Shown: positions 10,911 to 63,235 of the stretch, piece by piece
Position numbering within the stretch: position 1 is the stretch's first letter
How the letters are laid out: every line of letters starts with the position of its first letter
Source: Siphonodentalium dalli
Lineage: Eukaryota; Mollusca; Scaphopoda; Gadilida; Siphonodentaliidae
NCBI GenBank assembly: GCA_032622095.1
Contig: CP136061.1
Location: 41,545,797 to 41,609,796 of the forward strand
DNA length: 64,000 nucleotides
Direction: 5' to 3'
The notes under the pieces: model-generated
Databases searched by the model: none
What the model was told of the DNA's origin: nothing
What the model saw: the letters and a program-made list of their open reading frames with translations, nothing else
Translations under genes and position numbers: made by a program

Positions 10911-10971
10911 ATGGACAGAAAGGTGGTTTTGTTGTCTTTATGTGTGCTGATAGGTTATCTTGATTGCTGTG
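10911..10971 (+). CDS. Gene A exon 1: signal peptide (predicted)
   Basis: ATG at 10911 opens 20 codons, MDRKVVLLSLCVLIGYLDCC, with a Lys/Arg start and a continuous hydrophobic core, as in a cleavable signal peptide. The exon ends in 'gctgtg' immediately before a strong donor, 'gtaagtat' at 10972. One base (g) is left over, so the intron is phase 1. This fits the next recognised exon at 19996, whose first two bases (at) would complete an Asp codon. The small exon is too short for ordinary ORF listing. Its assignment to this gene is inference: it is 9 kb from exon 2 and no transcript evidence is available. It could belong to a different splice form or another gene. Confidence 0.5.
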
Positions 10972-11065
10972 GTAAGTATTGTTTGTTGTGTAACTCAGAA
11001 ATCTGTATTTATGCACGGTTAAAAGGGTTGAGCCTTTCTTTACTAAATAATCACTGACGAGTTCA

Positions 11066-11121
11066 TGTTCAGATAATAAGTTCAACAAATGGCCATAGTA
11101 TTGAACTTATTATATGAACAT
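11066..11121. repeat. Short hairpin repeat, 'agataataagttcaa' type
   Basis: 'tgttcagataataagttcaa' is followed 16 bases later by its inverse 'ttgaacttattatatgaaca'. The same hairpin occurs at 24186-24252, and the motif is part of the 63-bp minisatellite at 62484-62822. Confidence 0.75.
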
Positions 11122-11465
11122 TTACCACCAACGAATAGGAATCTGTTGAACTTCTAGCAGCTTTTTCGTCTGCGTGGCGTCTGTTCAATTTTAGTGAACA
11201 ACAAACAAGTGAAATTTGGACCATTCCAAAGTATACTTTCATAACTGGGTGGGAGAAACCTTTTTGTAATGAAATGCTTAAATAAAAGCTGCTTTCTTCG
11301 AATCAAGGCGCAATATTTGACCAATCTCTCAAGATGTTTTCTGCACTGTTATGCATATAAATCACGCCGATGTGTTTCATTTAAACATGCAAAGACGATT
11401 TTCAGCTGACATTACATGGATATTCCGATTAACCGAAAAATAGCAAGATTATTCAACTATTATAT

Positions 11466-12702
11466 GTGGTCTATCTCTTTGTAAACGTGTGTTATATAGT
11501 TACCGGGGTATAAAGGTGGTCTATCTCTTTGTAAACTTGTGTTATATAGTTACCAGGGTATAAAGGTGGTCTATCTCTTTGTAAACTTGTGTTATATAGT
11601 TACCAGGGTATAAAGGTGGTCTATCTCTTTGTAAACTTGTGTTATATAGTTACCAGGGTATAAAGATGGTCTATCTCTTTGTAAACTTGTGTTATATAGT
11701 TACCAGGGTATAAAGATGGTTTATCTTTTTGTACACTTGTGTTATATAGTTACCAGGGTATAAAGGTGGTCTATCTCTTTGTACACTTGTGTTATATCGT
11801 TACCAGGGTATAAAGGTGGTCTATCTCTTTGTACACTTGTGTTATATAGTTACCAGGGTATAAAGATGGTCTATCTCTTTGTAAACTTATGTTATATAGT
11901 TACCAGGGTATAAAGATGGTTTATCTCTTTGTACACTTGTGTTATATAGTTACCAGGGTATAAAGGTGGTCTATCTCTTTGTACACTTGTGTTATATAGT
12001 TACCAGGGTATAAAGATGGTCTATCTCTTTGTACACTTGTGTTATATAGTTACCAGGGTATACAGATGGTCTATCTCTTTGTACACTTGTGTTATATAGT
12101 TACCGGGGTATAAAGATGGTTTATCTCTTTGTACACTTGTGTTATATAGTTACCAGGGTATAAAGATGGTCTATCTCTTTGTAAACGTGTGTTATATAGT
12201 TACCAGGGTATAAATATTAGACATGAATCGAAGATTCCTTTCCGGAAATGCTTTTATCGAATAATATTGATTATATTTCGAATATGTTCTGGTCTAAAGA
12301 CGAGTGGTTGTTTAGCTAACGAACAACAGTAGTTACTGTGAACAGAGACCACACTTTTTATTTTGCAATATTGTCACAAATAAACGTTAATTAGACTCAT
12401 TGTCGCTTATAACTATGTAATAACACATAGCAATCAATCAATCTGGGACATTTGACACTCTGAGCATAGCTATGTGAACACCCTAATGATCTCCATTGAT
12501 ACATGGTATCACTTGAATGGTCTGTTGTAAAATAGAACAATAAAGTGTCCCACTTTATCATCTCATTTTATAATAAAATATAATTAAAATCAATATTAAT
12601 TGATATAATCGTTTCCAGAGATCTGTCTTCAATGCATATTTATTATTGTGTGCACACGAAACTATTTCAAAATTGTTATATGAAGAGCAAAGCCATCTTT
12701 AA
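11466..12702 (-). mobile_element. TTAA-type MITE, inverted copy carrying an internal minisatellite
   Basis: Between 12214 and 12702 this is the reverse complement of the element at 10109-10664, ending in 'ccatctttaa' at 12693-12702. Its other end has been replaced by the 50-bp array 11468-12213. No clean TTAA is present at the left edge (the sequence there is 'tattatatgtgg'), so that end is rearranged. The element lies in gene A intron 1. Confidence 0.8.
11468..12213 (+). repeat. 50-bp minisatellite, about 15 copies
   Basis: The unit begins 'ggtctatctctttgtaaac', continues 'ttgtgttatatagttacc' and 'agggtataaag', and repeats every 50 bases from 11468 to 12213. Copies differ by a few substitutions (gtaaac or gtacac; ggtataaagg or ggtataaaga). 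The unit is the subterminal sequence of the surrounding MITE family, which is single-copy in the elements at 10109, 30393 and 61240. It is not CRISPR: there are no unique spacers between units. Confidence 0.95.
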
Positions 12703-13084
12703 TTGCATAAGTGTACAGCACTGAGTACCGTTATAGAGCATGGTGGAATGAACGTTTGACAACAATCTGATGTGCACATTGACAAACACAGCTCAATGAA
12801 GTCTGGTCTTATTACAAATAATGTTCGCATTATATTCCAAATATTCTAATTGTTGTGTTGTGCTATGCGTGTTTACTTCATTTCGTGTTCTTCTCTGCTA
12901 AGCTCATTATGTACTTGTATAACGATTGTACAATGAACTATGCCAGTGTATATCACGACACGTAAGTTGTTTCGACCACCGCTAAAATTTAGTGACACGC
13001 TTGATAAATTGGTCCTGCTAGAACATCCCTAATGTAAGGTATACACCATTGCAACAGCCATATTGTATTGGGATTGTAGTTGTG

Positions 13085-13385
13085 ATTGATTGATTGGGGG
13101 TTAATTTCGCTTTGCGCAACTAAGACCATATCACGACATTGGCAGTTTTATTGGTGCATGGAGGCAACCGCACACTTACGGCTAATATAATAGTAATTTC
13201 AATGTCTGATAAACTGGTCGATCATGTGCGGCAAACAACCGGCCATCGGCGAGTATCTGGCAACTCCACCAGCTAACGATTTCACGATGGACACATGCGG
13301 ATTTGAACCCTCATCGCCAGCGCTGGAGGACGATACGGCTTGGAGTTGTGCCCCTAAGCGAGTGAGCCACGAGGCCCATTATAGT
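13085..13385 (-). mobile_element. tRNA-derived SINE
   Basis: On the minus strand the element starts near 13385 with 'gggcctcgtggctcactcgc', a close match to a tRNA A box (TGGCTCACTCG). It then carries 'ggttcaaatcc' near 13310, a near-perfect RNA polymerase III B box. It ends at about 13090 in 'acccccaatcaatcaatcac', a short tandem tail typical of SINEs borrowing a LINE 3' end. The tRNA part has no intact cloverleaf that I can fold with confidence, so it is not called a tRNA gene. No clear target duplication was seen. Confidence 0.75.
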
Positions 13386-13609
13386 AGTAGTAACATCACC
13401 ATCATACTCAATGTTCATACACTACCCAAACATACAGTTTATTTAACTGGGTAGGAAAAAATGTTGGGAACCAAACAACAAATATAAACCGGACCAAAAA
13501 TCAAACAATGTAACTGTGTACTGATAAATTACATAATAACTATTGCTGTGTCAATCTCAAACATGGAAATTATATTATAGGACGAAGAAGGATTGGATGT
13601 CACATAGCA

Positions 13610-13690
13610 CGTGATTATACACGTTCGTCGTATATAAGCGACTGCCATTTGCGCGCTTATACGACGTTTTCTACGTGTAGACGCGGGTGT
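13610..13690. repeat. Imperfect palindrome
   Basis: 'tacacgttcgtcgtatataa' and 'gcttatacgacgttttctac' form inverted arms around a short centre. The neighbouring sequence to 14420 is AT-rich with a CT run near 13828 and shows no gene. Confidence 0.55.
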
Positions 13691-14420
13691 AATAATATTG
13701 TTTTATAACTCTAGTATTGTGCATAAATGTGAGGTAAAGTAACACATATACATATCTATATATCTAATAGTGGTGCATAATATATAAGTGGTGTATACAA
13801 ATGGTGGTAGACCGATAACCTGAGTCTCTCTCTCTCTATAATATATTGGAGAATTGTAGCTACTTACATACTATTTGGGTGAATACCTGATGAGGTGTTT
13901 GGTAATACACATTAGGATTTGTTCTTCTGTTGACCATATTTTGGGAGCTCTCTTCATTGTGTGATAGTCACTGTTGGAAGTAACATATGAGGTTCATGCA
14001 AACGAACCGAGCACTGATATTCGGGTTTGCATCTTACTTATATGAGTATTGATATTATATGGGATTACGTCACTATGAAGGGATTTGTTATAAAAACTTC
14101 AAAATATATAGTTCGGTATGGCCATTTCTTCAGATATATTGGTAGTATATATTGGTTTATAGATTGGAAAATTGAACTATCGTAGTTATGTCGACCTATG
14201 TTCCAGTCTGAAACTACGAAATAATATTGCTTAATGCATAACGTTTACCACCGATATGACTGTTTTACCGGGATTTGGGAGGGTTGATGGGGTAGTAGAC
14301 CACATAGCTCCATCCCTGTACCAAACACCACGTCCGATTTGCTGATAATTCACATATTGTTCATGAAATGTTATGTCACTTGGGTGCGTGCCCTTATGAA
14401 AAATAGTACACTACAGTATA

Positions 14421-15215
14421 ACTATTATATAGATAATGAATGGCTTGGAGTTGACTATGCCAAAATAGTTGTCCTCGAGGAGGAATAGTCCACGGGCCGC
14501 AGGCGAGTGGACTATTCCTCCTCGAGGAGCACTATTTTGGCATAGTCAACGACAAGACATTCATTATTTATTATATTATATCGAACATTTGTCGGCATTG
14601 GTGCCAATTCTCACACATTTTCTCTGTCTGATTTGTCACAATTTTATTTACCGTGAATTTTGGAAATCGGTCTCAGATTTTACAATTTACGGCAATCATT
14701 TGACGATGGCAGGGGAGAATAAATATGTTATTAGTTACATCTAACAGCATCTCTTCGTGATTCATGCATTTATTTCTATAAATATGTCATTAGCAAAGAT
14801 ATTTTGGCGAAATTTTAGAAGTTAACTTGCTTAACTTCGACTAGAACGGAAATAACGTCCACTGGCATTACAAAATTAGGACTGGCCGCTTTCCAACTAA
14901 ACGGACAAACTATTAAATACACACACAGTCTGGATAGCAATGATCGAGCATTTGTAAGATCATTACAATACGCCAATAAATCTAATGATATACCAACATT
15001 GCAATAATTATCGTACACGTTATACTTTAAGATTGGTCGTATTTTCAAGGCGGCAACCCGATTTCGCGAAATGAGTTTGTTACTATAAATAGAAAAAGAA
15101 TAGTAGGTATGTAGGAATCCTACTGGGGTACTATAGTAAAATAGTATAGCAGTGTGTAGCCAATCAGAATGCGAGAAAGTCACGTGAGATATAATATAGG
15201 ATAATATAGTACAGT
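14421..15215 (+). mobile_element. Foldback element, copy 1 (inverse copy at 25955-26710)
   Basis: One end is a long palindrome (14421-14580): arms 'ttgactatgccaaaatagt' and 'cctcgaggaggaatagtcca' mirrored about a GC-rich centre near 14500. The remaining ~600 bases, including 'gatttcgcgaaatgagtttg' and the end 'cacgtgagatataatata', are present in reverse orientation at 25960-26570. The 138-codon antisense frame in it is not conserved as an open frame in the other copy. Class II MITE or foldback status is inferred. Confidence 0.8.
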
Positions 15216-15235
15216 ATGAAATAAAATGCATCAGT

Positions 15236-18020
15236 CTTAGTACTCATGGGACGTTTAATAAAGTATGTTGTAGTAATACTATACTAGCCCATGATTTTCC
15301 CAGTATTTTTGATTTGCATGTACGTGTTGTACACTCTTAGATATAACAATCCGTATAGGTACTTCAGAGTACAACATACTTCAGAGTACATATACGTCTC
15401 CTGGTTTCAAAGCAATATGTATCGAGAATCATTAGGTTCTATATATTGATGTAATACCGACGAGCGTTAGGTACTAGTCAATTTCGAAATAAATGGTGAC
15501 CACGTGATTGCATCACGTGATGCACGATACAATTCCACGAAAACATGGCGGCGTCTGGCCAATTGAGGCGATTGAGTTTTTTTTTACAATATATAAAAAT
15601 AGAGAGGATGCAGACATACACATTTTATGTTGAAATCGCCCTCGGTCTCGGCTTACATGCTATAGGTGTGCCCAATTAGGTACATTGTACTTTGACTGGA
15701 GGTATTTAAGAATACGGAAGTGAACTTTTCTGAAATTGATCAACATATTTTGTTGTGTGAAATTGGACCTAACTTGCTTCTTATTAACCTGGAATATTGT
15801 TAGCACTGTCTGGATTATGTTTGTATATGTAAGGGACAAGATGTTATAACCTCCGAAAATTAACGGGGGCTAATCATTGATAATTCCCTCTGCAAGAGAG
15901 CAGCAATTTTCAGAGAACTGAGACAGACCAAATTCAAACAGCAACAGCTGAGTCGTTGAGTGCAGTGGGGTTACACTTGACATGCACGACAGTGTTGTGA
16001 ATTTCAAAAGACAGATACTTCAAGTAAAGTTTCACAAAATTATAAACAGCCCAATTAACTCACAAGATTCAACCACTGGTGACTAGGATTACGACACGTA
16101 CAACACTGTCGAAATTAGTCGGAATTATGACGTCACAGATCAGTCATAACTCATGAGTCAGTCACAAGTTTGTTGGCTACAACATACAAGTACATGTACA
16201 AAGGACGATGGATCTTATTCTTCAATTTGCATCGAAACATGATTTGAGAATAATGTCGACATAACATATCGCCCAGTTACGGAGTCTGCTATTATTTTGA
16301 TCTAAACGCTGGTGACGCTGTGCAATTATTGTGATATATTTATTGAATGACGGATAATCTCGGTGACACGGATCCAATTATGTGACACACATTATCACTG
16401 AATCCGCCATAAGCTTTTATTAGAAGTTGACTTTTTTCACTGTAACGTACTACTGTACAGCTATACTCTAATTAATCGTCCCCTTTAACAAGGCTGTAGG
16501 GCATTAATGACACCGGTTATACCATACCGGCGTTCAACCACGTTCAAGTGGTTGAGATGACATTGTGGCAACCGCTAGTAATCTTTCTACGGTACTAGCA
16601 ATAATATTTTGCGACCACTGTACTCCGCATTAATTTTTCACATGGCCACCTTACACCCAATCTAGCTTTTCGTGAGCGCCACGCACCGTGTTATCTATAC
16701 ACAAAACAATATTTCAATTCATAATTTGTTTACGGTTTAATAAACATTCGAAGTTGGTAACTGACCGACATTTGCAACTGCATCACCAAAGCAGCGTCAA
16801 GCCATGCCAGAAATATACTCTGTGGTGGTTATAATGCTGAATTAAAAAAGGTACGAAGGTCGTCCATGGTAGGATTGATATTGGTTAATAGCATCAACGC
16901 AGTCGAGTAACGTGGTATTATCGGTAGTGAACGTCGTTAAGGGGGGGGGGGTAAATTATAGCTTAGCTGTTTACATACATGTACATGTGGACCATTCCAA
17001 TGTCCAGATGTATCATGTTCTTATCAAAACATGTGTGGCTATCATTCTGATAGATTCCGCCATTTCCGCTTTGCTAGGAAATAACCTCTTCCATAATTGG
17101 AAACCATATTCGCGAAATTCTACATTATTACGCGCGCCGCGTGTATACTAATCTCGAGATTCTTTTTTCGCCTGGGCGCATCGGGGTTTTGTTTATAGAA
17201 CTGGTAATTTTTGGGAGGATTAAAAATCGAACTGCGAACCGGAGGCCGAGTCCGGTAAAAGGTGTAGTTTCGATTTCGTTTATTGTCGTTAACATTATGT
17301 CAATAATGTTGATTTTTGGTTTGTGATAATCTATGCCAATTACAAATAAAAGAAATAAAAAAGATAATTTGTAAGTCTTATATTTCAACTTGTATAGACA
17401 TTTTTCGTTCTGCAGCCCACTGGGGGTTGTGGTCGGAGACGGCCGCCGGTTCGTTAATTAGGTACTGGTTGTTATTGTTATTTTAACGGAATTCTGAGTT
17501 GGTCATTTGCGAAACCAATATATTTTATATTCTATAATTACAATCATGGGTATATATATTATCTTGAGCGCGTTACCATTTCTGACATTGTATGGCTCTG
17601 GTGATCAGGCAATGACATTGACTCGATGACGCATAGTTGCGAATGGAGAATAATGTATTCGCTATGGCTTTACCAAACCGGATTATATATTAAATACATT
17701 ACTCTCTCTTTGTGTGAGCTTTGTTTGTTTGTTCATATACCGATACATCACATCGTAAGTGTACGACAAACAAAACAATCAACACCGTGGCGAATTGTTT
17801 TTTGGGAGAGTGATTACGGTGATCCATTCAACACCAAAATCTTGTGGCGAGGACTAGTGAGCGCTATAACAGTATAACAAGGTGCCAGCTTTAATTAACC
17901 AAAGTTCATTAGTGTGGTCTCCCCACTGTTGAGTATTTTGCTTATCGCACGCTATATATATGTACATACTTTACAACAGGTTCTGGAACAGAATTTGGCT
18001 TTGTTCACATAATGCAGATT
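15236..18020. other. Gene A intron 1 sequence, no gene seen
   Basis: AT-rich sequence. It includes a solitary 'tacactcttag' terminus with 'ggtacttcagagtac' repeats near 15335-15395, related to the 19.2/47.2 kb element, and an 11-base G tract at 16941-16951. Small frames around 17130-17390 show no recognisable product. Confidence 0.5.
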
Positions 18021-19225
18021 AGGAACTACGACAAATACATACTATTTATTATTATTTATTATGGTATAAAGAAAGGTCTGAGTGAACCACATGTTAACTA
18101 TAATGTCCTGATCGGGCTAAAATAGACCGATCGGTCTTCCTGGCACATCGGTCACTGTTGTAAGAAAGGGAACTCTATATATCTTGACTATTGAAATTTT
18201 GTTTGTTTGAAGATTTGCATATGTTTATTTTGAATATTCTCAGTTTGCGATTTATCGTAAAGATGTTTGAGATTTATTGGAAAGGTTTGCGAGTTATCGC
18301 AAAGATGTTTGTGATTTATTGCAAAGTTGTTTTGGAATTTATCGCAAACGTTTGCTCCCCTTATCCCATATGCATGCTGGCTGTGAAAGACCGATTGGTC
18401 TATTTTAGCCCGACTCGGCAATTATAGATTCATAGGTTGTTCACTCAGACCTGTTTAAGATGTCTGATTTATAATGTTTACTTTAATTACACACAAATTA
18501 AGAAATTTGGACGATTATTTCAGACAATCAGACAAAATTTACTCCACGTGCAGGCAACAGGTCAGGGAAATCCTGACCCGTACCTGTTTAAGATGTCTGA
18601 TTTATAATGTTACAAAAAAACCCATTAGTGCCAAAAAACCTTTGTGACAAATCTCAAACATCTATGCGATAAATCTGAGAGTTATCGTAAAGATGTCTGA
18701 GATTTATCGCAAAGGTTTGTGATTTATCGCAAAGTTGTTTAGTGATTTATCGCAAAGGTTTGCTCCCTTATCCAACATGCATGCTGGCTGTGAAAGACCG
18801 ATCGGTCTATTTTAGTCCGACCTTGCTATGATAGATCGATTGGTGGTTCACCCAGACCTGACATTGAATATGTCTGATTTATATTTATATTTATACAGTT
18901 CAGGCCCATTAGTGCCAATTAACACATAAACATATATTTATCGCAAACCTTTGTGATCAATCGAAAACATTTGCATCAAAAACGCGCATATTTATTGCAA
19001 AGTTGTTTGCGATTCGCAAATGTTTGCAATTTATCGCAAGGTAATGTTTTATTTATCGGGTTATTATAGATCGATTGGTGTTTCACCCTGACCTGTTTAA
19101 GATGTTTGATTTATAATGTTTACTTTAATATTATTGCACACAAATTAAGAAATTTTGACTATTATTTTAGTCATTCAGACAAATTTTACTCCACATGCAG
19201 GGAACAGTTCAGGGAAATCCTGAAA
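18020..19225 (+). repeat. Complex tandem repeat with 'atttatcgcaaag' units
   Basis: Blocks built on 'gatttatcgcaaaggtttg' occur at about 18240-18350, 18650-18765 and 18930-19045. They are bordered by inverted 'gaccgatcggtctattttag' elements (18112-18140, 18386-18415, 18795-18825). A second block, 'gtttaagatgtctgatttat' through 'actccacgtgcagg', is duplicated at 18450-18575 and 19097-19225. Together they form two to three diverged ~400-650 bp repeats. Confidence 0.75.
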
Positions 19226-19995: not shown

Positions 19996-20187
19996 ATGGA
20001 GTGTGCAGCCATAACTTTACAGAGGTTGTCGAAAACTCCTGGGAGGATACATTACACAACATATGCTATTATCAACTGACTGGCTGGTTTACATATCTTG
20101 AGGCAAAACAAGTCTGCGAATCAGCCGGTACTCATGTTCTCTTCCTGGAGACAGAGGCAGAATATGGTTATGTGGCTTCAGAGTTAC
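19996..20187 (+). CDS. Gene A exon 2: N-terminal half of C-type lectin domain
   Basis: The 192-base exon lies between acceptor 'attaccag' and donor 'gtgagt', phase 1 at both ends. It encodes about 64 residues. 'WEDTLHNICYYQLTGWF' matches the opening of a CTLD, 'YLEAKQVCESAGTHVLFLE' matches the first helix with the conserved Ala, Cys and Gly, and 'TEAEYGYVASEL' matches the second helix. An N-glycosylation site (NFT) lies near its start. In the family this half carries the Cys that pairs with the final Cys of the domain. The paralogous exon of gene B is not recognisable in the window. Confidence 0.85.
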
Positions 20188-20438: not shown

Positions 20439-20439
20439 A

Positions 20440-24252: not shown

Positions 24253-24374
24253 TGACCACATTAACATACCTCCAAATCAATAATTGACCATTCATATGCA
24301 CACTGTTTAACTGACTGCGAGATTCCATTTAGTATAGAAAGGATTGACATAGCAATGTCTTCTTTAATCAACAG

Positions 24375-24617
24375 CTAGCAGCATCAAATTTATCTGGGTC
24401 GGACTGGAGTTGATAAGTGACTCATGGTACTGGGTCGGCAATAACCAGAGCAAGATTGAACCATGTCCCAGATGGGATTCAAGCCCTATAGTGGGACAAC
24501 CATACGTGTTTACGACCCATATACGTAAGAATGCCTTCTTGGATACTGGAGCAGGAACTACATCTACTGATGCGGTTTGCGAGTATGGAGCCTCCGATTT
24601 TGATAAAAATAAAACGG
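24375..24617 (+). CDS. Gene A exon 3: C-terminal half of C-type lectin domain
   Basis: The 243-base exon lies between acceptor 'tctttaatcaacag' and donor 'gtgagt', phase 1 on both sides. It encodes about 81 residues: 'KFIWVGLEL' (the WIGL-type core strand of CTLDs), 'SWYWVGNNQSKIEPCPRWD', and the closing 'AVCEYGASDF', where Cys is the final disulphide Cys. Canonical sugar-binding triplets (EPN or QPD, and WND) are absent, so calcium-dependent sugar binding is doubtful. Gene B's equivalent (62990-63235) has GQPCVC where this gene has GQPYVF, so two Cys differ by one base change each. An NKT glycosylation site lies at the exon end. Confidence 0.85.
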
Positions 24618-24619
24618 GT

Positions 24620-25080
24620 GAGTGTATAAATACATATATTTAGGCCGCCTGCATGGCGCGTGACTACATGCACACGCAGTGTGTAAATAGAGCATACGCA
24701 TAGTAGAACTGCATCGTAGTTCGGAAGATATATATAGTTCTTATGTTACATTCATTTAAAGTTGGAAGTTGTCATAATTTCAATTATATATGAGGAACAT
24801 TGGCTCCGTTTCAATCAAATGTAGCTTTCTAGTGTTATATGAACTAGGAAACATATGAATGGTTGTATTAGGTTACTGGTAGCTCAGAAACAGACTGAGG
24901 TCATGGCGTAACTGTTTGCATCACTGCGCACATTCCTTATAGCGTCGTTGTTTGTCTATCGGTGAGGATAAACATTAAAAGTAAACAACGGAGTAGTTGA
25001 ATTCGCGGAATACAAAATTTAGTATTCTCAGCTACTATGGGTGTATCTATTATATATTTTGGGAGATCTGTGTGTGTGTG
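24620..25080. other. Gene A intron 3, start; nothing recognised
   Basis: AT-rich sequence running up to a TG run and a 15-base G tract (25084-25098). No gene or element was identified. Confidence 0.5.
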
Positions 25081-25954: not shown

Positions 25955-26710
25955 ATCTCCTTATATTATATCTCACGTGACTTTCTCGCATTCTGATTGG
26001 CTACACACTGCTATACTATTTTACGATATTACCCCAGTAGGATTCCTACATGCCTACTATTCTTTTTCTATTTATAGTAACAAATTCATTTTGCGAAATC
26101 GGGTTGCCACCTGAAGATACGGCCAAACTTAAACTTAACCTTTTTGTATGATATACTTGTTGCAATATCGGTATATCATTAGATTTATTGGTGAATTGTA
26201 ATGATCTTACATAACAAATGTCCGATCATAGCTAGCCAACGTATTTAATAGTTTGTCCGTTTATTTGGCAAGCGGCCAGTCATAATTTTGTAATGACAGG
26301 ACGTTATTTATAATTTCCTTTCACGCTTTGATCGATGTTAAGCAAGTTATCTTCTACAATTTCGCCAAAATGTCTTTTCTAATGACGTATTTATAGAAAT
26401 AAATGTATGAATCATGAAGAGATGTAACTAATAAAATAGTTATGCTCCCCTACCAACGTTAAAAGATTGCTGTAAATTGTAAAATCTGAGACCGATTTCC
26501 AAAATTCAAGGTAAATAAAAATGTGACAAAATCAGACACAGAAATTGTGTGAGAATTTGCACCAATGTTCGATATAATATAATAAATAATGAATGATTTG
26601 TCGTTGACTATGCCAAAAATAGTGGTCCTGCGGCTCGTGGACTATTCCGCTTCGAGGACCACTATTTTGGCATTGTCAACTCCAAGCTATTCATTATCTA
26701 TATAATATAT
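25955..26710 (-). mobile_element. Foldback element, copy 2 (inverse of 14421-15215)
   Basis: It starts 'tatattatatctcacgtgac', runs through the inverse of the 14.8-15.2 kb sequence, and ends with a palindrome (26571-26709) whose arms 'gttgactatgccaaaaatag' and 'ctattttggcattgtcaact' flank a shorter GC-rich centre than copy 1. The frame that is open in copy 1 is interrupted here. Confidence 0.8.
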
Positions 26711-32499: not shown

Positions 32500-34725
32500 T
32501 AGGGCTTAGTTACTGCCAATAACGGCGTACGTACGTCGTACTATAGCGTAATTATGCCATATTGCGGAGAATATTCGCGGTACTTGGGCGTAAGTACATC
32601 GTGCTAGGTGTATACTTACGACGAATTACGGCGAGTATACGTCTTAGAATACTATTGTAGCAAGGCGGTTCAATGCTTCCGTATTCCGCTGCATCTGTTT
32701 CGCGATGTGATGGAATGTGGTTGGTGCTACGTCCGCATCTCGGCACAACGCTGCCGAATCTCAACAGCCAGTGGGAGTATTTCAAAGTAATATATTTTGT
32801 CACCACGCTGTCAATTATATAAGCTATGCGGCCATTTCTTTATCGTCAGCAATGGAACGAAGATACCGTTTTGTTATAAGAAAAGTGTTGCACAAAAGTG
32901 TAACTCTACGAAATATTTATTCGAACACTGGACAGAGTGTCATTATTTAATTTTATCGGCATATACCCGCTACAGTTGTCGCATCTTTTATTGTTGGGTG
33001 GCAAAAACCATGATTACACAATTCGGTATCAAACACATAACCGTAGATTTGAGAATTGACTTAAGCTTCGAACTCATTACTGATGTGAATGTTCAATACC
33101 AGGAGTTTTGACTTAAATAAATTCCCAATTCTTCTTCAAGTGCCACTTGTATAATATGAAGGTTGATGAATCGTGCGGTCAAGATTATACGCCCGGCAAC
33201 AATGTAAAAAGTTAAAATTCATTCGGTGACGCCGATAAATAAAATTAATTATATTTGTTCCAATGTTGGAATAGGAATTTCGCAGAGTTGTACTTTTCTC
33301 ATAACAACACGACATCTACACCCCCTTTCTGCAAATACCGAAATGGTTGAATATCTGTCCTACTTGACAACGTGGAGAAATAATATAGTTACTTAAAAAT
33401 TCGCCTCATTTTGTGTTTGAAATTCGGCAGCGTTCAAATTCGCACCGAGAACGGGACATATAACTGCCGAGACCGGGACGCAGCACCGACCACATTCAAG
33501 TAATGATAAAGTGTGATACATGTATTATATGCTCGCGTTAAATCACATGCACTGTGTAATAAGAAACTGGGTGGTCGTTCACATGAACAATAAACAACTG
33601 CAGCGTTCATTTAGGAAAACGGACGTCTTAAAATATTCGGTCTAGCTGACCATTTTAGTTGGACAGCGGTTATTTATAATTTATTATAACCGATGAGTTT
33701 GTTCATTCATTAACAGTGTTGTAGTTTATTGTGTGTCCATTTACACATTTCTGTGGTTTGGGTGGCATGATACATGTACGCCCCCGTGAATCAGCAATGA
33801 AATAGTACTCTTTAATGTTCAATCAAAAGTATTATATATAGTCCAAACTCCACGTATTCTTCGTGCACATTTTTTTCACCCAATTTTTATAATTGGGTCA
33901 TTATTTTCGATTCAAAAGATGTTTCTGACTTTGCGAGGGTCTGTATTACCTGTCGTCGTAGTGTCTGAACTCGATATGTTCATGATATCAGTTCAGTAAT
34001 ATTGAACAACAATAATGCAAAAACAGCATCGTGGATCATCAACATCAGTGTGGATACTCACCAGCATCATCGTGGTCCCGTCCCTATACCAATGTGGACA
34101 TATAATACACAATTGGGCTTGTTGCAAGCGTACATTATGTATCCTTTGAATGAATGCATATATTTGTTATCGAAATCATCATTCCCTTCATCTGGGATGA
34201 TTTTTAGCCAAGTAATGCGACAACACTTATGGGTTTTTGGTAATCATTACTAGCTGAATACTCACAAAATAACGCCAATCTTAATTCGTCCGTGGAGTTG
34301 CATAATATAATATATCTAACCAGAGGATTCAGTGGATTAATATGTAGGTTCGATGTAAACATAGAAAAATAGCATGACCCATCACCATCATTGGAAGTTA
34401 GCAGAATCACTTGACCAGGGGTGATATTTCTCTCATTTTCCTCGATTCTGATTGGACATGTCCTAGCAACGCCTTAGTTGCTATCGTATCGATATGGCAT
34501 CAGTGGGAGTAAAACATAGACTGGTGTCCCATCGAAATAGGGATCGACCGCATGCACTTATATTATTTGCCATCCAATTGTTTTGGTCAACATAGCTATA
34601 TGTTGATCAAAATTGGCGAAGCTATCAGCTTCGTCTACCACTGATGATGTGATAAAACACCTATGCACCATGTGTGTGATGTGTTGCAACACATAACAAC
34701 TGAGATTTCATGTAATTTATTACAG
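32500..34725. other. Gene A intron 3, end; no gene seen
   Basis: A few small frames (for example 32797-33111) have no recognisable domain. The interval ends in the acceptor 'aatttattacag' at 34725. Confidence 0.45.
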
Positions 34726-35873
34726 ATACATCTTGTTTACCAACAACAACAACGACCACAGAAACGAGTCCCTCACCCGATACAACTACTATAACCACTG
34801 GCGCAACAACAACAACAACAACCACAAAAACAACAACAACAACCACAACCACAATAGCAACTACTACTACTGCTTATACCACTATTACTGACACAACTAG
34901 GACTACAACCCCCACCTCAACTGGTACAACCGCCACTACATCAACAACAACAACAACATCAACATCCCCACCCAGTACAACCACCACCACTACTTCAACC
35001 ATTATCACAACCTCTACTACAACACCTACATCGACCACTACCGGAACCAGTACCACTACAGCAGCAATAATAACAGCCATGACCACAACTAGTATTGACA
35101 CTGCTATTACAATATCAACCAGTACCACCAGTACCACAACTACTACAAAGGACGGCTCAACCACAACAACCAGTCGAACAAGTACAACTACTACACTTAC
35201 TTCTACTACCGCCAGAATAACCAGTACCATATCATCAACCACTACAACCACACCAGTCACCATTATCACACATACTTCTACAACAATCACCACACACAGT
35301 ACCGCACCAACAGCAAGTACCGTCACTAGCACGACCACTGCTACACAGACTACTGGCACGATCACCACAACAGCCACTACCACGGTCACCACTACACCAA
35401 CCACCAGCACCACGACAACAACCACCACCGCTGCCACAACAGCCACCACCACTGGGACGACGGTTACCACAGCCTACACCACTGGGACGACGGTTACCAC
35501 AGCCACCACCAGAGGGATGACGGTTACCACAGCCTCCATCATGGGGACGGCAGTTACTACAGATAAGACAGTGGGTGCCACGTCACCATACATGATTACG
35601 CCAGTCAACCAAGGCACAGGTTGCGGCTTACAACTTGACAGAGAGCAACTACGTTTCAACTGTATGTATCGGAACATGGAACCGATTTCAAATGGAGCTG
35701 AATCACTGTATGTTATCAGTAGGCTGGGTTGTGCTAAAGAATGTGCGGCCGTTGATGAGTGCTGGTCATTCACCACCGACGGCAAACGAGCATGTCGGCT
35801 GCATGGTTGTCCCAGTTCGTACAACTTCACATCACGACACGGAGTGAATTACTACGCTGTCCGCAGCCCATGA
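34726..35873 (+). CDS. Gene A exon 4: Thr-rich mucin stretch and PAN/Apple-like C-terminus
   Basis: Acceptor at 34725, phase 1 entry, then 381 codons to TGA at 35871-35873 in one open frame. It starts 'TSCLPTTTTTTETSPSP' and continues as an almost pure Thr/Ser/Pro/Ala stretch to about residue 285, the composition of O-glycosylated mucin domains. Near 35449-35565 it becomes a 30-base repeat encoding TTGTTVTTA units. The last ~90 residues are globular: 'LGCAKECAAVDECWSF' and 'ACRLHGCPSSYNFTSRHG' give the Cys spacing and central Trp expected of PAN/Apple modules, which bind proteins or sugars. Valine-rich frames on the opposite strand are shadows of the Thr codons. Confidence 0.88.
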
Positions 35874-54970: not shown

Positions 54971-55384
54971 AACCGACGTTGTCGAAATTGATAAATAGCA
55001 CACTATATTGATATTAATACACGATATTGTCATAATACAAACAACAACTGGATTTAGCATTTGAAAAGTTTCAAAAATATAATTTAGGACACCATTCCAA
55101 GGAAAACGCGATTTGGTCGTAAATTATTTGGTGCAGAGTTCTTTACTTTTAGCAACGACGCGTCGTGTTAATTGTCATTATAAACAGTAGTTTATACAAT
55201 GTACATCAATGACTTTCCCTCAGTTTTCTCTGAGTTTTGACATGCTTTACCATAACATATGGATTGTAGTTATTTCGGGGAAATTGAGAATCCGAAATTA
55301 GTTTAAATTCACATAGCTCGAAATATATTCAGCGACTTTGGGAAAGTTTTCATGTTTTTGTAAACAGGAAAGTAAAATCTAAAT

Positions 55385-55845
55385 GGGATTATGGTTGATT
55401 TTTGTAAGTTGTTTATAATGGGTTTATATTGTTGATTTGTGTATGTTGTTTATAATGGGCTTATTGTTGATTTACGTATGTTGTTTATAATAGGTTTGTG
55501 TACGTTGATTAAAATGGGTTTATGTGTATGTTGTTTATAATGGGTTTTGGGTATGTTGTCTATAATGGGCTTACGTATGTTGTTTATAATGGGTTAATGT
55601 GTATGTTGTTTATAATGGGTTTATGTATATTGCTTATAATGGTTCATGTATGTTGTATATAATGTGGTTATTGTTGATTTGTTTACGTTGTTTATCATGC
55701 GTTTATTGTTGATTTTTGTATATTGTTTATAATGGGTTTATTTTTATATTTTATTTATAATGGATTTTTGTATATTGTTTATAATGGGTTTATTTTTATA
55801 TGTTATTTATAATGGATTTTTGTATATTGTTTATAATGGGTTTAC
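55385..55845 (+). repeat. ~23-35-bp minisatellite
   Basis: Units of 'gtatgttgtttataatgggt' with optional 'ttattgttgattt' are repeated about 18 times with variable spacing. The last units (55740-55840) alternate 'tttttatattttatttataa' and 'tggatttttgtatattgttt'. Confidence 0.9.
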
Positions 55846-55849
55846 GCAC

Positions 55850-56546
55850 TTTCTTTACTTATTCCTGCAAAGAAACACTATTACAGTAAGTATCAGGTTT
55901 GGCATTTGGTTCTCATACACGCATTGGACTAGAACCAATGTCTTCTACACGGACGATAGTTGCCAAGTAACGTCGTATTCACGTCATGGATTCTATTGAA
56001 ATTTCCTTTATTCAACCGGGAACAATATAAAGAGCGTTCCTTGTTATTGGACTCCTGATATGGTAAACGACAAAGATCGACCATCTCCCTTTCTTGTTGA
56101 AATTTGAACACAGCGAATAGTACGACTCATGTGAGTATTTTTTGAGAGCACAAAAAGCCTGTCTGTCGGTCTTCAATGTATTTTTGGCCTATATTTTCTT
56201 AACTTTCAATTTACTTGTACATATAATTGTTAGGTTCACACTAGAGGTGTGACTGTCCCAAAGTGACTAAGGATACACCCACATGGACCACAAACAGGTA
56301 GCGACATTAGTCCTTTCATGACGGGTGCTAGCTGATGCAGCATTAAAGAACATGTTCCAGTGGATTATCTTATATATGCGAGTCTCCCATGGGACAAGAA
56401 ACCCCACACTATAGTCTGGTTTGAATATAAAACTATCAGAACAAATTCAACCTGCTTTAATCTGAATTATCCAATTAATGTTCGTTCCGGCCTGAACTTT
56501 CACATTCTGAAATCGCCACGTCTCGTCTATATCATGGTACTATTGT
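55850..56546. other. 3' flank of gene B, no other gene seen
   Basis: 56363-56384 holds a fragment ('cttatatatgcgagtc') of the 'tatatatgcgag' palindrome family. The 50 bases next to the gene B stop match the 3' flank of gene A. Confidence 0.5.
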
Positions 56547-58057
56547 TCATGGGTTGCGTACAGCGTAGTAATTCACTCCGTGTCGTGATGTGAAGTTGTA
56601 CGCACTGGGGCAACCATACATCCGACATGCTCGTTTGCCATCGGTGACAAAGGACCAGCAGCCATCAGCAGCCAAACATTCCTTTGCACATCCCAGCCTG
56701 CTGGCTACATACAGTGAGTCAGCTCCATTTGAAATCGGTTCCATGTTCTTATACATGAAGTTGAAGCGTAGTTGTTCTCTGTCAAGTTGAGAGCCACAAC
56801 CTGTTCCTGGGTTTACAGCCGTAGCCATTTGTGATGAAGTGGCCGAAGTATCTGTCTCTGTGATTGAGGTGGTGGCACTAGTGGTTGGTCCATTTGTTGT
56901 CATGGTAGTCGTTGCTGTGGTGATCGTGCCAGTGGTTAATGTAGCAGCTACCGTGCTTGTGACGGTGCTTGTGCTGGTTGTGGTGATTGTAGTAGAAGTA
57001 GGTGTCGTAGCGACTGGGGATGTTGTTGCTGTACTGGCTGAGAGGCTGTTACTGGTTGTTGTGGTGGTAGCAGAAATATGAACGGTAGTGGTTCCTGTTG
57101 TGCTTGCGGCAGTTGTTGTAGTTGATGATGTGATAGTAGTTGAGGTCGTTGTACTTGTGGATGTGGTGGTTCTTGTACTAGCAGCATCATTTGTAGCTGT
57201 AATCGTGGTAGCTGGTAATGCTGTCGTAGTGGTGCTGGTTCCGGAAGTAGTAGTGGTGGTACTCGTCGAGGCGGTTGTTGTTGTAGAGGTTGTAATTGTT
57301 GTAGCAGTAGTGGTGGTGGTACTGGTCGATGCGGTTGTTATAACAGCAGAGGGTGTATTTGAAGTAGTAGTGGTGGTGGTGGTGAAACTGACCGAGGCAC
57401 TCGTTGTAGTAGATGTTGTAGGTGAAGTAGTTGTGGTGGTGGTGGCGGTTGTACTGGTCGAGGCAGTTGTAGTAGAGGTTGTAGTTGTAGCTGCAGTATA
57501 GGTGGTGGTACTGGTTGATGCGGTTGTAGTGGTATAGGTTGTAGTTGAAGTAGTAGTAGCGGTAGTGCTGGTTGAGGCGCTTGTTGTAGCAGAGGTTGTA
57601 ATTGATGTGGTAGTTGTGGTGGTACTGGTCGAGGCGGTTGTTGAAGTAGAGGTTGTGGTAATGACTGAATTGGGTGTTGTTGTTTCTGTTTCAGTTGTTG
57701 AGGTAGTTGTTGTGGTGGTACTGGTTGATGCAGTTGTTGTTGAGGATGAGGTTGGTGTTTTTGTTGCTGTTGTAATGATATTGGTTGTGGTGGTACTGGT
57801 CAAGGCTGTTGTAGGAGTTGTTGAATATATTGTGGTTGAGGTGGTGGTAGTGGTGGTGTAACTGGTTGAGGTTGTTGTATATATCGTGCTTGGTGCGGTG
57901 GTGGTAGTGGTACTGGTGGGTTCGGTTGTTGTTGTACTTGTAGCATCGGTTGTAGTTGTGTACGTGGTTGTTGCAGTTGTAGTGGTGCTTCCATTGGTGA
58001 CAGTTGATGTATCTGATGAGAAACTCGTCTCTGTTATCGTCGGCGATAAACAAGTAT
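56547..58057 (-). CDS. Gene B last exon: Thr-rich mucin stretch and PAN/Apple-like C-terminus
   Basis: Acceptor 'tccgttattacag' ends at 58058; phase 1 entry, then 502 codons to the stop at 56547-56549. It starts 'TCLSPTITETSFSSDTS', equivalent to 'TSCLPTTTTTTETSPSP' of gene A. A Thr/Ser/Ala stretch of about 410 residues follows, roughly 120 longer than in gene A and rich in 'STSTTTT'-type repeats. The final ~90 residues are the PAN/Apple-like module, with 'LGCAKECLAADGCWSF' and 'ACRMYGCPSAYNFTSRHG', closely matching gene A. The extra Cys of gene A (FNC) is Phe here (FNF). The plus-strand Val-rich frames are shadows. Confidence 0.88.
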
Positions 58058-59060
58058 CTGTAATAACGGATGTGTATTATCATATCACACAAAGTTGCAT
58101 TTTCTTTTATTTTAACTATTTTTATGAGCATGACTTCGGTGTGTTTTGTCAAATTTCCAGTTTCACGAGCATCATATTGGGCAATATGTTTCAGCAAATG
58201 AGCTCAACTGATTTATATTTCTGTAATATAACATTTACTAAATACGCATGAAAAGACTCCAGACTCCAGATATATGTAATCGTGTTTGGTTCACATGTGG
58301 TCGGTTTGATTCAGCAGCAGCGAACACGTATGACAAAGATAGTAGGGAGCAACATTTGTCCAAGCCAACAGTAAGTACGGAGTAGAGATAATGTCTATTC
58401 GGATGCGAAATTTCAATATATCTAGAAAAATACAAGATAAGGTCTTTACAAATAGTGCCAAGCTGTCAAGAAGGGTTGGGATGTGCCTCACCTCACCCAC
58501 GCTTTGGCCAATATTTTCAATAGTTAGAAATTTCATTGGAATAATAAACCAAAGCTGTGTTGACATTGGCATGCTAGATTGATATCACAGCCAGCACCTC
58601 CAACGGCTGACATAATTGTATGTCGCATGCTTGCTGTCAATTCAAATTTTCTAATGTAATTTTCTTAATGTTATAGGCCTACATATGTACTACATGTATA
58701 AAAATTGTTAATTCATGATACAATACGATTTATTTACATACGCACCAATAAATGCAGTATGCTACCAATACAATACAATTCATAATAAAACAGTAATTTA
58801 TGAATATATACAAACGAATATGATATGCAAATTTGAATTTGTTTGAGACAATGCAAATTTTTGAAATTGGGTGGGATACGAACCCCGGCCCGACTAGCTA
58901 CATGTATTGACATGTCTCGCTACATATATTTGTATTGCTTGATGGCATGCATAATATGTATTCAGAATGGGGACACGCTGGAGCACCTTGCACAATTTAC
59001 AGCAAATAAATATGTGTTCGCAAAGTATTGTTAAAACATCATCACTTATCGCATACTAGC
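58058..59060. other. Gene B intron; possible tRNA-SINE fragment near 58.87 kb
   Basis: On the minus strand 'gggccggggttcgtatccca' at about 58869-58888 resembles the B box and T arm of a tRNA-derived SINE ('ggttcg'), but no A box at the right distance is convincing. Nothing else was recognised. Confidence 0.35.
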
Positions 59061-59061
59061 G

Positions 59062-59690
59062 TTATTAACCTATATAATCGATAATATATCTATATTAATA
59101 TATATTAACCTATATAATCGATAATATATCTATATTAATATATATTAACCTATATAATCGATAATATATCTATATTAATATATATTAACCTATATAATCG
59201 ATAATATATCTATATTAATATATATTAACCTATATAATCGATAATATATCTATATTAATATATATTAACCTATATAATCGATAATATATCTATATTAATA
59301 TATATTAACCTATATAATCGATAATATATCTATATTTATAAATATTAACCTATATAATCGATAATATATATATATTAATATATATTAACCTATATAATCG
59401 ATAATATATCTATATTAATATATATTAACCTATATAATCGATAATATATCTATATTAATATATATTAACCTATATAATCGATAATATATCTATATTAATA
59501 TATATTAACCTATATAATCGATAATATATCTATATTAATATATATTAACCTATATAATCGATAATATATCTATATTAATATATATTAACCTATATAATCG
59601 ATAATATATCTATATTAATATATATTAACCTATATAATCGATAATATATCTATATTAATATATATTAACCTATATAATCGATAATATATC
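59062..59690 (+). repeat. 40-bp AT-rich satellite, about 15.7 near-identical copies
   Basis: Unit 'tatattaacctatataatcg' plus 'ataatatatctatattaata'. Almost all copies are identical; the visible variants are confined to about 59333-59372. The unit contains self-complementary parts ('tatattaatatata', 'ataatcgataat'). It lies in the gene B intron and contains no spacers. Confidence 0.97.
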
Positions 59691-59782
59691 TTGGCAAAAT
59701 CGCATTTTCTGCTAAATGATGCTTGAAACACGATCCTCATCTATTTTATGTTCCAACAAAAACAGCGATATAAGTACAATTG

Positions 59783-59920
59783 TTAACCCTTTACCCAACA
59801 AAACGGTCAAAACCGACCAAATAAAGCTTCAACAGCCTAAAATATCTTCGGTCTGTCTCAATAGAACCATACAATATGGATATCATTGGCACAGGGCCCT
59901 TCTGTTGGGTAAAGGGTTAA
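59783..59920. mobile_element. 138-bp piggyBac-type MITE
   Basis: A perfect 18-base inverted repeat, 'ttaaccctttacccaaca' at 59783-59800 and 'tgttgggtaaagggttaa' at 59903-59920. The ends are TTAA followed by CCC and GGG followed by TTAA, the hallmark of piggyBac termini and target. No coding sequence is present. Confidence 0.85.
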
Positions 59921-59924
59921 AGGC

Positions 59925-60780
59925 GTAAAGAAAACTAGAAACCATATCCTTCTTCGCCAACCTCCCTGCTCTGACATTTTCTTCATAGCGACAAATTTAC
60001 TTGACGGTACTACGATGCAATTGTGGGGATGTCTATATATGCGAGTGGTGAAAGTTGGTGCTAATCACTAGACCGTCGATCACACCAGTTCTCATATATA
60101 GGTTAATTCTGTCGTAATGACTATATATGTATCAGGTCCTGGTTAATTTAAGTATTTAATTTTTTATAAAATTTAATCAATATTGATATGCCGAACAAAT
60201 CAGCTAGATTATAATTTAATTTGTCGAAGTTTTACTTGATTATTTCCACCGCGAACGAGACTTGTTTCTAGAGTTTAAAAAATGTATTACATCACATTCC
60301 CCGAACTATTATTTACATCTTCTCCATACTGGCGTTAACAACAATTCCGAGTGGTCAGTTTATTTTGAGGTGTTTGATGAAGAGTTCGCGATGGCTGGCA
60401 CAAAATGTTTCAACAAGTTGTCGGTGTTTAATTTTCCTCATATATGTCGCAATAAATGGGTTATTAGCATTGAAATTGGGTCGCGAAATGGATACAACAG
60501 AGTGTTGGTAGATTTTTCGCGAAAAGTGTACATAAATACTGCTAACGGCACGTATATAAAGTATGCTAAGTATAATCACCATACTAAAAATTAGAGAATA
60601 GTCATTGATACATCGGTGTAAAATCAATTCATGTCGTCCAGCAGTTTTGTAGTGTTAAAAATGATTATTTTGAGTGGTGTCCACTCTTTTTCCTGTTCCG
60701 AACTGTGTGTGTCATCCGACTATCCGTGTTCGATTACAATGCGTGGTTACGCGAACTAACCAAAGTCGGATTTTTAATTA
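59925..60780. other. Gene B intron; one unrecognised 110-codon frame
   Basis: The frame 60262-60594 (+) lacks an ATG at its start (TTG) and has no recognisable domain. 60030-60105 holds a weak inverted repeat, 'ctatatatgcgag' and 'ctcatatatagg'. No exon of gene B is expected here. Confidence 0.4.
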
Positions 60781-60794
60781 ACTGCTAAATGTAT

Positions 60795-61820
60795 CTTGGT
60801 AACCCTAATTTTTAAGAATAGTGGAAATATTTTCATTTCTTTCGTTGGAGTTATTCTCTGGTAAGTAAATGTAAATTTGTGACAAAAACACATCAGATTT
60901 TTAAACGACTTCCAAATGTAACTTTGTAACTATTTATTTGAAGAATATTGAAAATATTTTCATTTTTACTTCTAACAACTGTAACCCGGTTACGAACGCG
61001 TAATGCATATTTGGCGCACCAAATCTCGACCTATATATTTACTGACGGCTCCGCGTGTATGGGCAGTGGTTACATGTGGGCATATCACATTCCATTGGCC
61101 AGTTTGTGGGCTATTCCATTTTCTATTTGATATATCATATCTATAGTTGGAGTTATTCTCTTGTATGCAAATGTAACTCTATGACAAAATACGTCGGATT
61201 TTTAAAGGACTTCCAAATGTAACATTGTAACCCTTATATTTAAAGATGGATTATCTCTTTAAATAACAAATTTGAAATAGTTGCGTGGGTATAAAATACT
61301 AAATATGAACTGAAGACCCCTGTCTGGAAAGGCTTCTATCAATTAATATTGATTTATTTCGAATATTTTATTGGGTCCATTTATTTCTCTATTTTAAGGA
61401 CAGACCATTCGGGTGATACCATATATCGATATAGAGAATTAGGCTGTTCCTGTGGCTGCGCACCGAACGTAAAATGACCCAGATTGATTGGTTGTATTGT
61501 TTTATTCCATAGTTATAAGCGATAATGAGTTAACGTGTATTTGTGACAAAATTACACAATAAAAGTTCTGGTCTCTGTTAACAGTAACCACTATTGTTCG
61601 TTAGCTAAACAACCACACCTTTTTAGACCAGAAAATATTCGAAATAAAATTAATACTAATCGATAGAAGCATTTCCGGACAGGAGTTTTCGATTCAGGTA
61701 TAATATTTTATACCCCGGTATAATACATGTTTACAAAGAGATAATCAACCTTTAAGAATATTATAAATATTTTCATTTTCACTTGTAACCACTGTAACCA
61801 GGTTACCAACTCTTAATAAT
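60795..61820 (+). repeat. Direct repeats around a TTAA element
   Basis: 'ttggagttattctctggtaa' and following 'caaatgtaac-ttgtaaccct' blocks recur at about 60840-60960 and 61147-61239. 'gaatattgaaaatattttca'-type sequence recurs at 60812, 60940 and 61756. The last copy is split by the MITE at 61240-61755. Confidence 0.75.
61240..61755 (+). mobile_element. TTAA-flanked MITE, copy 3 (best preserved)
   Basis: It starts 'ttaaagatggattatctctt' and ends 'agagataatcaacctttaa', giving about 20-base inverted ends bounded by TTAA at 61240-61243 and 61752-61755. An unfilled relative of the target, with a single TTAA, is at 60812-60815 in the neighbouring repeat. No transposase is present. Confidence 0.9.
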
Positions 61821-61844
61821 CAAGGTTCGCGCTGTCACTTGCCA

Positions 61845-62280
61845 AATGTGCCAATGGCAAAAATGATTCACATTTGGCAAAAAAAAATTCATTTGGCAAA
61901 AGTTTTGGCAAGTCACTTTTTAAATCCTCAAGAAAGTTGAAAAATATTGGTCAATAAATACCATGCATTTCAGGAAACTCTCACATCACATTAGTGGTGT
62001 TTTATAAGGTCTAGGAAAAGTTAAAACCTTTATTACGATACAGTTAATCTGATAGCATTAGTATTGGGGGGTGAAGGGATTACCCGTATTTAGTGTGGTG
62101 GTGGTGTTTACATATCTAATCCTCTTGTGATGTGCCCTTCTGGTGAAACAACCCTCTACAATTTTATTGTTCGGTGATTGGTTTATTGTTGTGTGATTAA
62201 CCAGAAAATAAGACTCAATGTTGCAGAAAATTATACTATCAGGGATAGCATTTGGCAAATTCTAAAAGAAATTGGCAAAA
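61845..62280. repeat. 'atttggcaaa' repeat-bounded segment
   Basis: 'cacttgccaaatgtgccaat', 'cacatttggcaaaa', 'catttggcaaaagttttggc' (61845-61915) and 'gcatttggcaaattctaaaa' (62248-62270) cluster at both ends of a segment without a gene. An element boundary is suspected but not proven. Confidence 0.45.
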
Positions 62281-62483
62281 ACTATTTTTATTATTAATAA
62301 TAATTATTTGGCGCATCACATCGGGAAATATCAATTTGTACAAAGGCTCTGCATGTATGGGCAACGGTTACATCGGTACATGAACAGATTACAAATGACG
62401 ACCTGTTGTTATAAAGTGGCCATTCGGACAAAATACTATACTATACTAAAGCGTCATTGATCAGCAGTTATCCCAAAAGAAAT

Positions 62484-62822
62484 GATCAGATAATAAGTTT
62501 AACCCTTCGTATACTAAAGCATCACCGATGAGTAGTTATCCCAAATGTTCAGATAATAAGTTTACCCCTTCCTATACTAAAGTATCATCGATGAGTAGTT
62601 ATCCCAAATGTTCAAATAATAAGTTTAACCCTTCCTATACTAAAGCATCATCGATGAGTAGTTATCCCAAATGTTCAGATAATAAGTTTAACCCTTCTTA
62701 TACTAAAGCAGCATCGATGAGTAGTTATCCCAAATGTTCAGATAATAAGTTTAACCCTTCCTATACTAAAGCATCATCGATGAGTAGTTATCCCAAATGT
62801 TCAGAAAATAAGTTGAAATATG
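62484..62822 (+). repeat. 63-bp minisatellite, about 5.4 copies
   Basis: Unit 'ataataagtttaacccttcc' plus 'tatactaaagcatcatcgat' plus 'gagtagttatcccaaatgt'. Sixty-three is divisible by three, so a 101-codon frame with a 21-residue repeat (MSSYPKCSDNKFNPSYTKA-type) stays open at 62528-62833. There is no start context or splice support, and it lies in the gene B intron in antisense, so it is read as non-coding. Confidence 0.9.
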
Positions 62823-62989
62823 TCGTTTGTTGAACTGAACAATATATATTACTCCTTCTGCACTTTTATTTATCTGTCGTCTGCTTTTATCACATTAACA
62901 TCTTTCCACATGAATGATAGAACACACCAATGTATTATTATATAGCTGAATGGGAGAATCCATTTATAATAGAAATGATATAAACTCAC

Positions 62990-63235
62990 CGATTGTATGT
63001 TCGTCAAAATCGGAGGCTCCATACTCGCAAATCACTTCATTGAATGCAGCTACAGTTTCAGTCGCCAAAGTTGCATCCGAATGAATTTGGGACGTACATA
63101 CGCACGGTTGTCCATCTTTTGGGTAGGTAGCATCGAATCTGGGACATGGTTCAACCTTGCTCTGATTATTGCCGACCCAGTACCATGAGTCATTTGTCAA
63201 CTCCAGCCCGACCCAGACGAATCTGATGCTCTGGT
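62990..63235 (-). CDS. Gene B exon: C-terminal half of C-type lectin domain
   Basis: Acceptor 'tctttaatcaacag' (identical to that of gene A exon 3) and donor 'gtgagt', phase 1 at both ends, 246 bases. It encodes 'RFVWVGLEL', 'DSWYWVGNNQSKVEPCPRFD', 'GQPCVCTSQ' and 'EVICEYGASDF'. The WVGL core and closing VICEY are CTLD signatures. No EPN/QPD or WND sugar-binding motif is present. It keeps two Cys (GQPCVC) that gene A has replaced by Tyr and Phe. The product is one residue longer than gene A exon 3. Confidence 0.87.

Follow-up and report, generated by a model that had tools for sequence, protein, structure and literature searches.

Gene models at the locus

The window analysed here, 64,000 nucleotides of the genome of the scaphopod mollusc Siphonodentalium dalli (C1:41545797-41609796; 2.23 Gb in 9 contigs), carries two genes, A and B, predicted to encode secreted proteins with a C-type lectin domain (CTLD) as head, a Thr-rich stalk and a PAN/Apple-like module as tail. 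Two long open frames rich in Thr are in convergent orientation (34716-35873 on the plus strand, 58076-56547 on the minus strand), and the genes lie tail to tail, with stops at 35873 (A, plus strand) and 56547 (B, minus strand) and 20.7 kb between them. An earlier reading of the window (the original prediction) had proposed this convergent pair, the order of CTLD, Thr-rich stretch and PAN module in both members, and their common descent, all of which was borne out. The shared exon borders and phases that it reported were also found: the first CTLD exon measures 192 bases in both genes, as it does in the two neighbouring relatives C and D described below, the second measures 243 bases in A and 246 in B, and the exon junctions of both genes are in phase 1 with GT/AG sites. 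Exons missing at first were recovered by comparing the four loci A-D, giving models of four exons and 547 residues for gene A and of four exons and 669 residues for gene B. The window covers gene B only in part: exons 3 and 4 are inside it, and exons 1 and 2 are located 12-20 kb past its edge. An AATAAA/ATTAAA motif is found 207 bases past the stop of A and 85 bases past that of B. The features are as follows.

Gene A exon 1: 10911-10971, plus strand, predicted signal peptide MDRKVVLLSLCVLIGYLDCC, donor GTAAGT, phase 1, with homologous exons upstream of gene B and of a CTLD gene on contig C6
Gene A exon 2: 19996-20187, plus strand, first CTLD half, 192 bases, phase 1-1
Gene A exon 3: 24375-24617, plus strand, second CTLD half, 243 bases, phase 1-1
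Gene A exon 4, first part: 34726-35621, plus strand, Thr-rich stalk, 299 residues, 56% Thr, 10% Ser
Gene A exon 4, last part: 35622-35873, plus strand, PAN/Apple-like module, 83 residues, and stop
Gene B exon 1: C1:41629883-41629823, minus strand, predicted signal-peptide exon, outside the window
Gene B exon 2 (CTLD exon 1): C1:41622417-41622226, minus strand, 192 bases, outside the window
Gene B exon 3: 63235-62990, minus strand, second CTLD half, 246 bases
Gene B exon 4, first part: 58057-56799, minus strand, Thr-rich stalk, 420 residues, 54% Thr, 17% Ser
Gene B exon 4, last part: 56798-56547, minus strand, PAN/Apple-like module and stop

The signal peptides were called by an ad hoc hydrophobicity filter and not by a trained predictor, and the filter returned one further, unrelated candidate upstream in each of A, B and D; for C it returned none. 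The signal exon of gene A is supported by its homologues, one upstream of gene B (70% DNA identity, E 1.5e-10) and one on C6 (82% DNA identity, E 1e-39), which precedes a related CTLD exon on the same strand by ~19.5 kb. The C6 exon reads as a similar signal peptide and has a donor identical to that of gene A.

A local gene family

The CTLD-stalk-PAN architecture is not confined to A and B. Searched at the protein level, the PAN end of gene A has 12 matches at E up to 0.001, of which seven lie within C1:41.378M-41.643M, and at least five related genes (A-E) occupy ~275 kb of this contig, four on the minus strand and only A on the plus strand. Genes C and D have the same order of CTLD, stalk and PAN module as A and B. 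Gene E, whose PAN end matches that of A with an E of 8.7e-8, contains the two halves of a CTLD and a PAN module joined by a short Thr/Ser linker only. A further member, gene F, lies 36 Mb off at C1:78.185-78.199M. It comprises the two CTLD halves, which together score 26.6 bits against Lectin_C, and a Thr-rich-PAN exon; the E-to-F match has an E of 1.3e-4. Just downstream of the gene C stop, two truncated PAN copies (C1:41642140-41642503) match over 55-56 residues without stops.

The CTLD head

The joined CTLD of gene A matches Pfam Lectin_C (PF00059) with 36.5 bits (cut-off 22.6), and the same family recognizes the joined CTLDs of all four genes A-D (E up to 0.1; best E 2.4e-12). Single half exons of A and B remain under the cut-off, at 16.7 and 18.0 bits. 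A profile of the domain reaches 101 distinct PDB sequences with E values of 0.01 or less, including lymphocyte antigen 75, mannose receptors and selectins. The DNA encoding the second CTLD half is 78% identical between the two genes of the window (24359-24628, plus strand; 63251-62979, minus strand).

EPN/QPD and WND motifs are marks of calcium-dependent sugar binding in C-type lectins. EPN, EPD, QPD, QPN or WND-type motifs were seen in 0 of the 4 CTLDs of genes A-D, and the heads are therefore unlikely to bind sugar by the classical calcium-dependent mechanism. Cysteines 4, 24 and 41 and the last cysteine of the domain are kept in all four genes. Cysteine 95 and a cysteine at the start of the stalk occur together in A, B and D and are both missing from C, a pattern of joint presence and joint absence that suggests a bond between head and stalk.

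The PAN tail

The PAN ends of A and B are inverted copies that share 84.5% identity in a 316-base DNA alignment; the encoded proteins are 84% identical across 89 columns. The Pfam family PAN_1 (PF00024) matches all four ends of genes A-D at E up to 1, with a best value of only 0.0056. Its curated cut-off of 21.4 bits is passed by the homologous ends of genes E (22.4) and F (24.9), gene A falls below it, and the two PAN relatives found on contig C3 matched no Pfam family. The assignment to the PAN/Apple family is thus weak for gene A itself and is supported through its relatives E and F.

C-x3-C-x5-C together with a further cysteine is a mark of PAN domains. This core is kept in all eight aligned ends, in which the four central cysteines and the first one are invariant. 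A profile of the four ends A-D retrieved PDB entries 2yil (E 0.0062) and 4a5v (E 0.11), followed by an unrelated zinc-finger entry, 2drp (E 0.45). With all eight ends in the profile, the only matches at E up to 1 were 2yil (E 0.00079) and 4a5v (E 0.0011), both apicomplexan microneme proteins, which we take to hold PAN/Apple domains and which are presumably binders of galactose-type sugars. The two-domain composition given in the original prediction is retained, the joined CTLD by a direct family match and the PAN module by way of E and F. Its description of both domains as recognition modules is weakened by the motif-free CTLDs.

The Thr-rich stalk

Stalk length varies between the four genes, from 159 residues in C and 160 in D to 299 in A and 420 in B, with a composition of 54-62% Thr, 66-78% Thr and Ser combined, and 1-4% Pro. 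Gel-forming mucins likewise combine a long Ser/Thr-rich segment with a signal peptide. They differ, however, from the proteins described here, whose stalks are only 1-4% Pro and whose four-exon model is free of VWD and cystine-knot domains. When the modelled exons were scanned with Pfam, neither of these two domains was found, the only matches being PAN_1 in the last exon of gene A and Lectin_C in the CTLD; the last exon of gene B and the signal exon of gene A had no Pfam match.

Evolutionary rates of head and tail

Nonsynonymous divergence (dN) is higher in the CTLD than in the PAN module in all six pairwise comparisons of genes A-D (bootstrap 0.974-1.000), which share sequences and are thus not independent. 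The ratio of nonsynonymous to synonymous divergence (omega) in the A-B pair is 0.72 for the CTLD and 0.26 for the PAN module, at a synonymous divergence (dS) of 0.37 and 0.38, respectively. Omega is higher in the CTLD with bootstrap values of 0.984-0.985 in AB, AC and AD. Pooled omega stays below 1 for both modules in all six pairs, the pairwise CTLD values ranging from 0.44 to 0.72. The head is the faster-evolving part of these proteins, and positive selection is not proven.

The 84% identity of the PAN ends of A and B exceeds that of their CTLDs (57-58%), which made gene conversion of the PAN exon a candidate cause. With dS equal in the two modules, selection is the simpler reason for the identity gap.

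Duplication history

The original prediction held that A and B arose by inverted duplication, which is not supported as worded. The cluster comprises at least five genes, and CTLD trees place B with C (support 96/97 with ten rows and 96/98 with six rows), while A and D remain unresolved beside the C4 and C6 relatives. Forcing A and B together lowers the log-likelihood by 15.2, with a P value of 0.074 in the approximately unbiased test (p-AU), and forcing A and D together lowers it by 2.0 (p-AU 0.118). A simple inverted duplication of A and B is accordingly disfavoured and not rejected. The PAN tree did not resolve the relations among A-D.

Pairings in the flanking DNA are mixed. In the flank 5' of CTLD exon 1, gene A pairs best with D (score 57; A-B 23; shuffle maxima 13); 5' of the last exon, its closest matches are D and C (47 and 42; A-B 15). 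In the flank 3' of the stop, B is the only gene with which A scores above the shuffles (19; shuffle maximum 15), and the closest match of C is D (60). The roughly 50 bases of shared 3' flank noted in the original prediction were recovered as ~48 bases that align between A and B from the stop on, a score reached by 1 of 500 shuffles of the 60 post-stop bases. Beyond the exons and close flanks, no inverted A-B block was found, the other matches being short or falling in stretches repeated within the window, and none being collinear with the exons. These observations agree with tandem duplication in which one copy was inverted, and agree less well with A and B having arisen by one recent inverted duplication.

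Relatives elsewhere in the genome

Parts of the architecture occur on other contigs. On C8, similarity to gene A revealed two loci at which a CTLD second half continues in frame into Thr-rich sequence; in Pfam, one of them was unmatched and the other reached 17.4 bits, below the cut-off. One 794-codon frame at C8:94.7M (excerpt positions 5080-7461) joins a CTLD second half to a very long Thr-rich repeat, and a PAN module was not seen in the 9 kb read there. On C4, three same-strand copies of a related CTLD gene (25.628M, 25.692M and 25.764M) are spaced 64-72 kb apart and have equal or nearly equal search scores; a PAN module was not detected at these copies.

Two C3 loci carry Thr-rich-PAN exons. 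At C3:227.7M, repeated laminin-G-like exons (excerpt positions 5823-6611) stand upstream of a 603-codon Thr-rich-PAN frame. A sister exon among them scores 26.1 bits (cut-off 22.9), and part of the exon nearest the stalk produced no more than a sub-threshold match, to another family. As read from the sequence, phase 1 is found both at the end of this nearest laminin-G-type exon and at the start of the stalk exon, and the laminin-G-type and Thr-rich-PAN exons may form one gene.

Exon matches genome-wide number at least 150 for the CTLD (150 of 150 scored, out of 1097 candidates) and at least 133 for the PAN module (133 of 150 scored, out of 1852). Neither list includes a gene of the present cluster, so that weak members of this kind are missed. 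Among these 150 CTLD and 133 PAN matches, four same-strand CTLD-PAN pairs lie within 50 kb, compared with a mean of 0.35 and a maximum of 6 in 500 random placements; the excess is weak since the random maximum surpasses the observed number. The PAN module is downstream of the CTLD in three of the four pairs, at two loci (C2:46.63M and C2:114.01M), and no Thr-rich exon was seen between CTLD and PAN among the listed open frames of at least 70 aa there. The genome was also searched for molluscan haemocyanin; no match came up, a result that does not demonstrate absence.

Interpretation

We tentatively read A and B, at a little under an even chance, as belonging to a family of secreted, stalked linkers that duplicated locally, each linker with a conserved PAN anchor, an O-glycosylated stalk and a faster-changing head. 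This reading is built on the module order common to A-D, E (with its short linker) and F, the Lectin_C matches of the four joined CTLDs, the PAN_1 matches of E and F, the dN pattern and the variation in stalk length, as well as on the related CTLDs of C4 and C6, near which no PAN match was detected, and the C3 Thr-rich-PAN exon next to laminin-G-type exons. The O-glycosylated stalk would act as a stiff, hydrated spacer, the slow-evolving tail would dock to a partner common to the whole family, be it matrix, mucus or another copy, and the faster-evolving head, devoid of the classical calcium/sugar motifs, may contact a changing partner. In a secretion or in the extracellular matrix, the protein would thereby tie targets that vary to an anchor that does not. 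New versions could arise when genes duplicate, when the stalk lengthens or shortens and, probably, when heads and tails are exchanged in phase 1.

Several observations weigh against the linker reading. The PAN end of gene A scores only 15.4 bits against PAN_1, and AlphaFold2, run on this end with two window sequences, gave a pLDDT (predicted local distance difference test) of 36.7 and no usable model. The higher omega of the head has bootstrap values of only 0.90, 0.71 and 0.74 in BC, BD and CD, and the faster head could reflect relaxed constraint. A homologous signal exon was not found for genes C and D in the 20 and 15 kb searched, and the four-exon models of A and B are known here from genome sequence alone. 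A PAN module was not detected near the related CTLDs on C4 and C6, a result limited by search sensitivity, as the same gene A query also missed gene F.

A structural role, in which the proteins are adhesive, mucus or shell-matrix components whose stalk does the work, with end domains that serve only for its assembly and a head that diverges under weak constraint, is a rather unlikely alternative. The stalks, 54-62% Thr and 159-420 residues long, and the motif-free CTLDs are what such a protein would display, but the retained head cysteines and pairwise omega values below 1 speak for constraint on the head. We consider it similarly doubtful that the proteins recognize microbes in mucus or blood through a CTLD and a PAN module that each bind glycans, as the original prediction suggested. 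The microneme proteins are the only PDB matches of the eight-end PAN profile, and both domain families are large in this genome; however, the absence of the classical motif from all four CTLDs counts against the proposal, and the PAN matches do not show a retained sugar site. A role in mucus or against pathogens is possible.

Gamete proteins often evolve with such fast change, and a reproductive protein of the egg coat, sperm surface or egg-mass jelly, with head and stalk changing fast through gamete recognition, would account for the fast head and slow tail, the local duplicates and the signal-peptide exons of A and B. The sequence showed no feature peculiar to reproduction, though, and we judge this improbable. 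Decay of duplicates that have lost expression is very improbable, the truncated PAN copies next to gene C and the unlocated signal exons of C and D being outweighed by open frames, GT/AG sites and omega below 1 for both modules in all six pairs.

Beyond the linker reading as such, the phase-1 exon of Thr-rich stalk and PAN module might serve as a reusable tail onto which diversifying CTLD or, at other loci, laminin-G heads are swapped, giving an expandable stalked recognition repertoire with variable heads, a constant anchor and a reach set by stalk lengths of ~15 to 420 residues. We regard this extension as speculative and on balance unlikely. The FREPs of snails follow a comparable logic. 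If the heads bind varied targets and the tail a single partner, S. dalli would possess a stalked recognition repertoire free of immunoglobulin or fibrinogen domains; if not, A-F would be an ordinary lineage-specific family of secreted glycoproteins. The genes present a small and clear case of domain combination, with matched exon phases and with head, stalk and tail at different rates within the same genes.

Elements of this design are known from other animals. Nematode proteins combine a CTLD with a PAN module (PMC5297725), and these CTLD-PAN/CW proteins have the same module pairing, with a long Thr-rich stalk not described in the part of that source available to us. A rotifer secretory C-type lectin has a single CTLD beside a long low-complexity Thr/Ser-rich region (PMC8878817); unlike in A-D, this region precedes the CTLD, and the whole words PAN, apple and mucin are missing from the main text of that paper. 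Given these precedents, and as judged against open-licence PubMed Central papers, A-F constitute a new family assembled from known parts.

Repeats in the window

The introns of both genes contain repeats. A tandem array with a unit of 50 bases (11467-12214) lies inside intron 1 of gene A, and the intron after CTLD exon 2 of gene B holds arrays with units of 40 bases (59063-59691) and 63 bases (62441-62814). An inverted pair of about 750-800 bases with 82% identity (14423-15198 and 25962-26707) is located in gene A introns and is perhaps a dispersed repeat. A further tandem repeat, with a unit of 354 bases in ~3 copies, occupies 3309-4345 of the window and has inverted relatives at 1-303.

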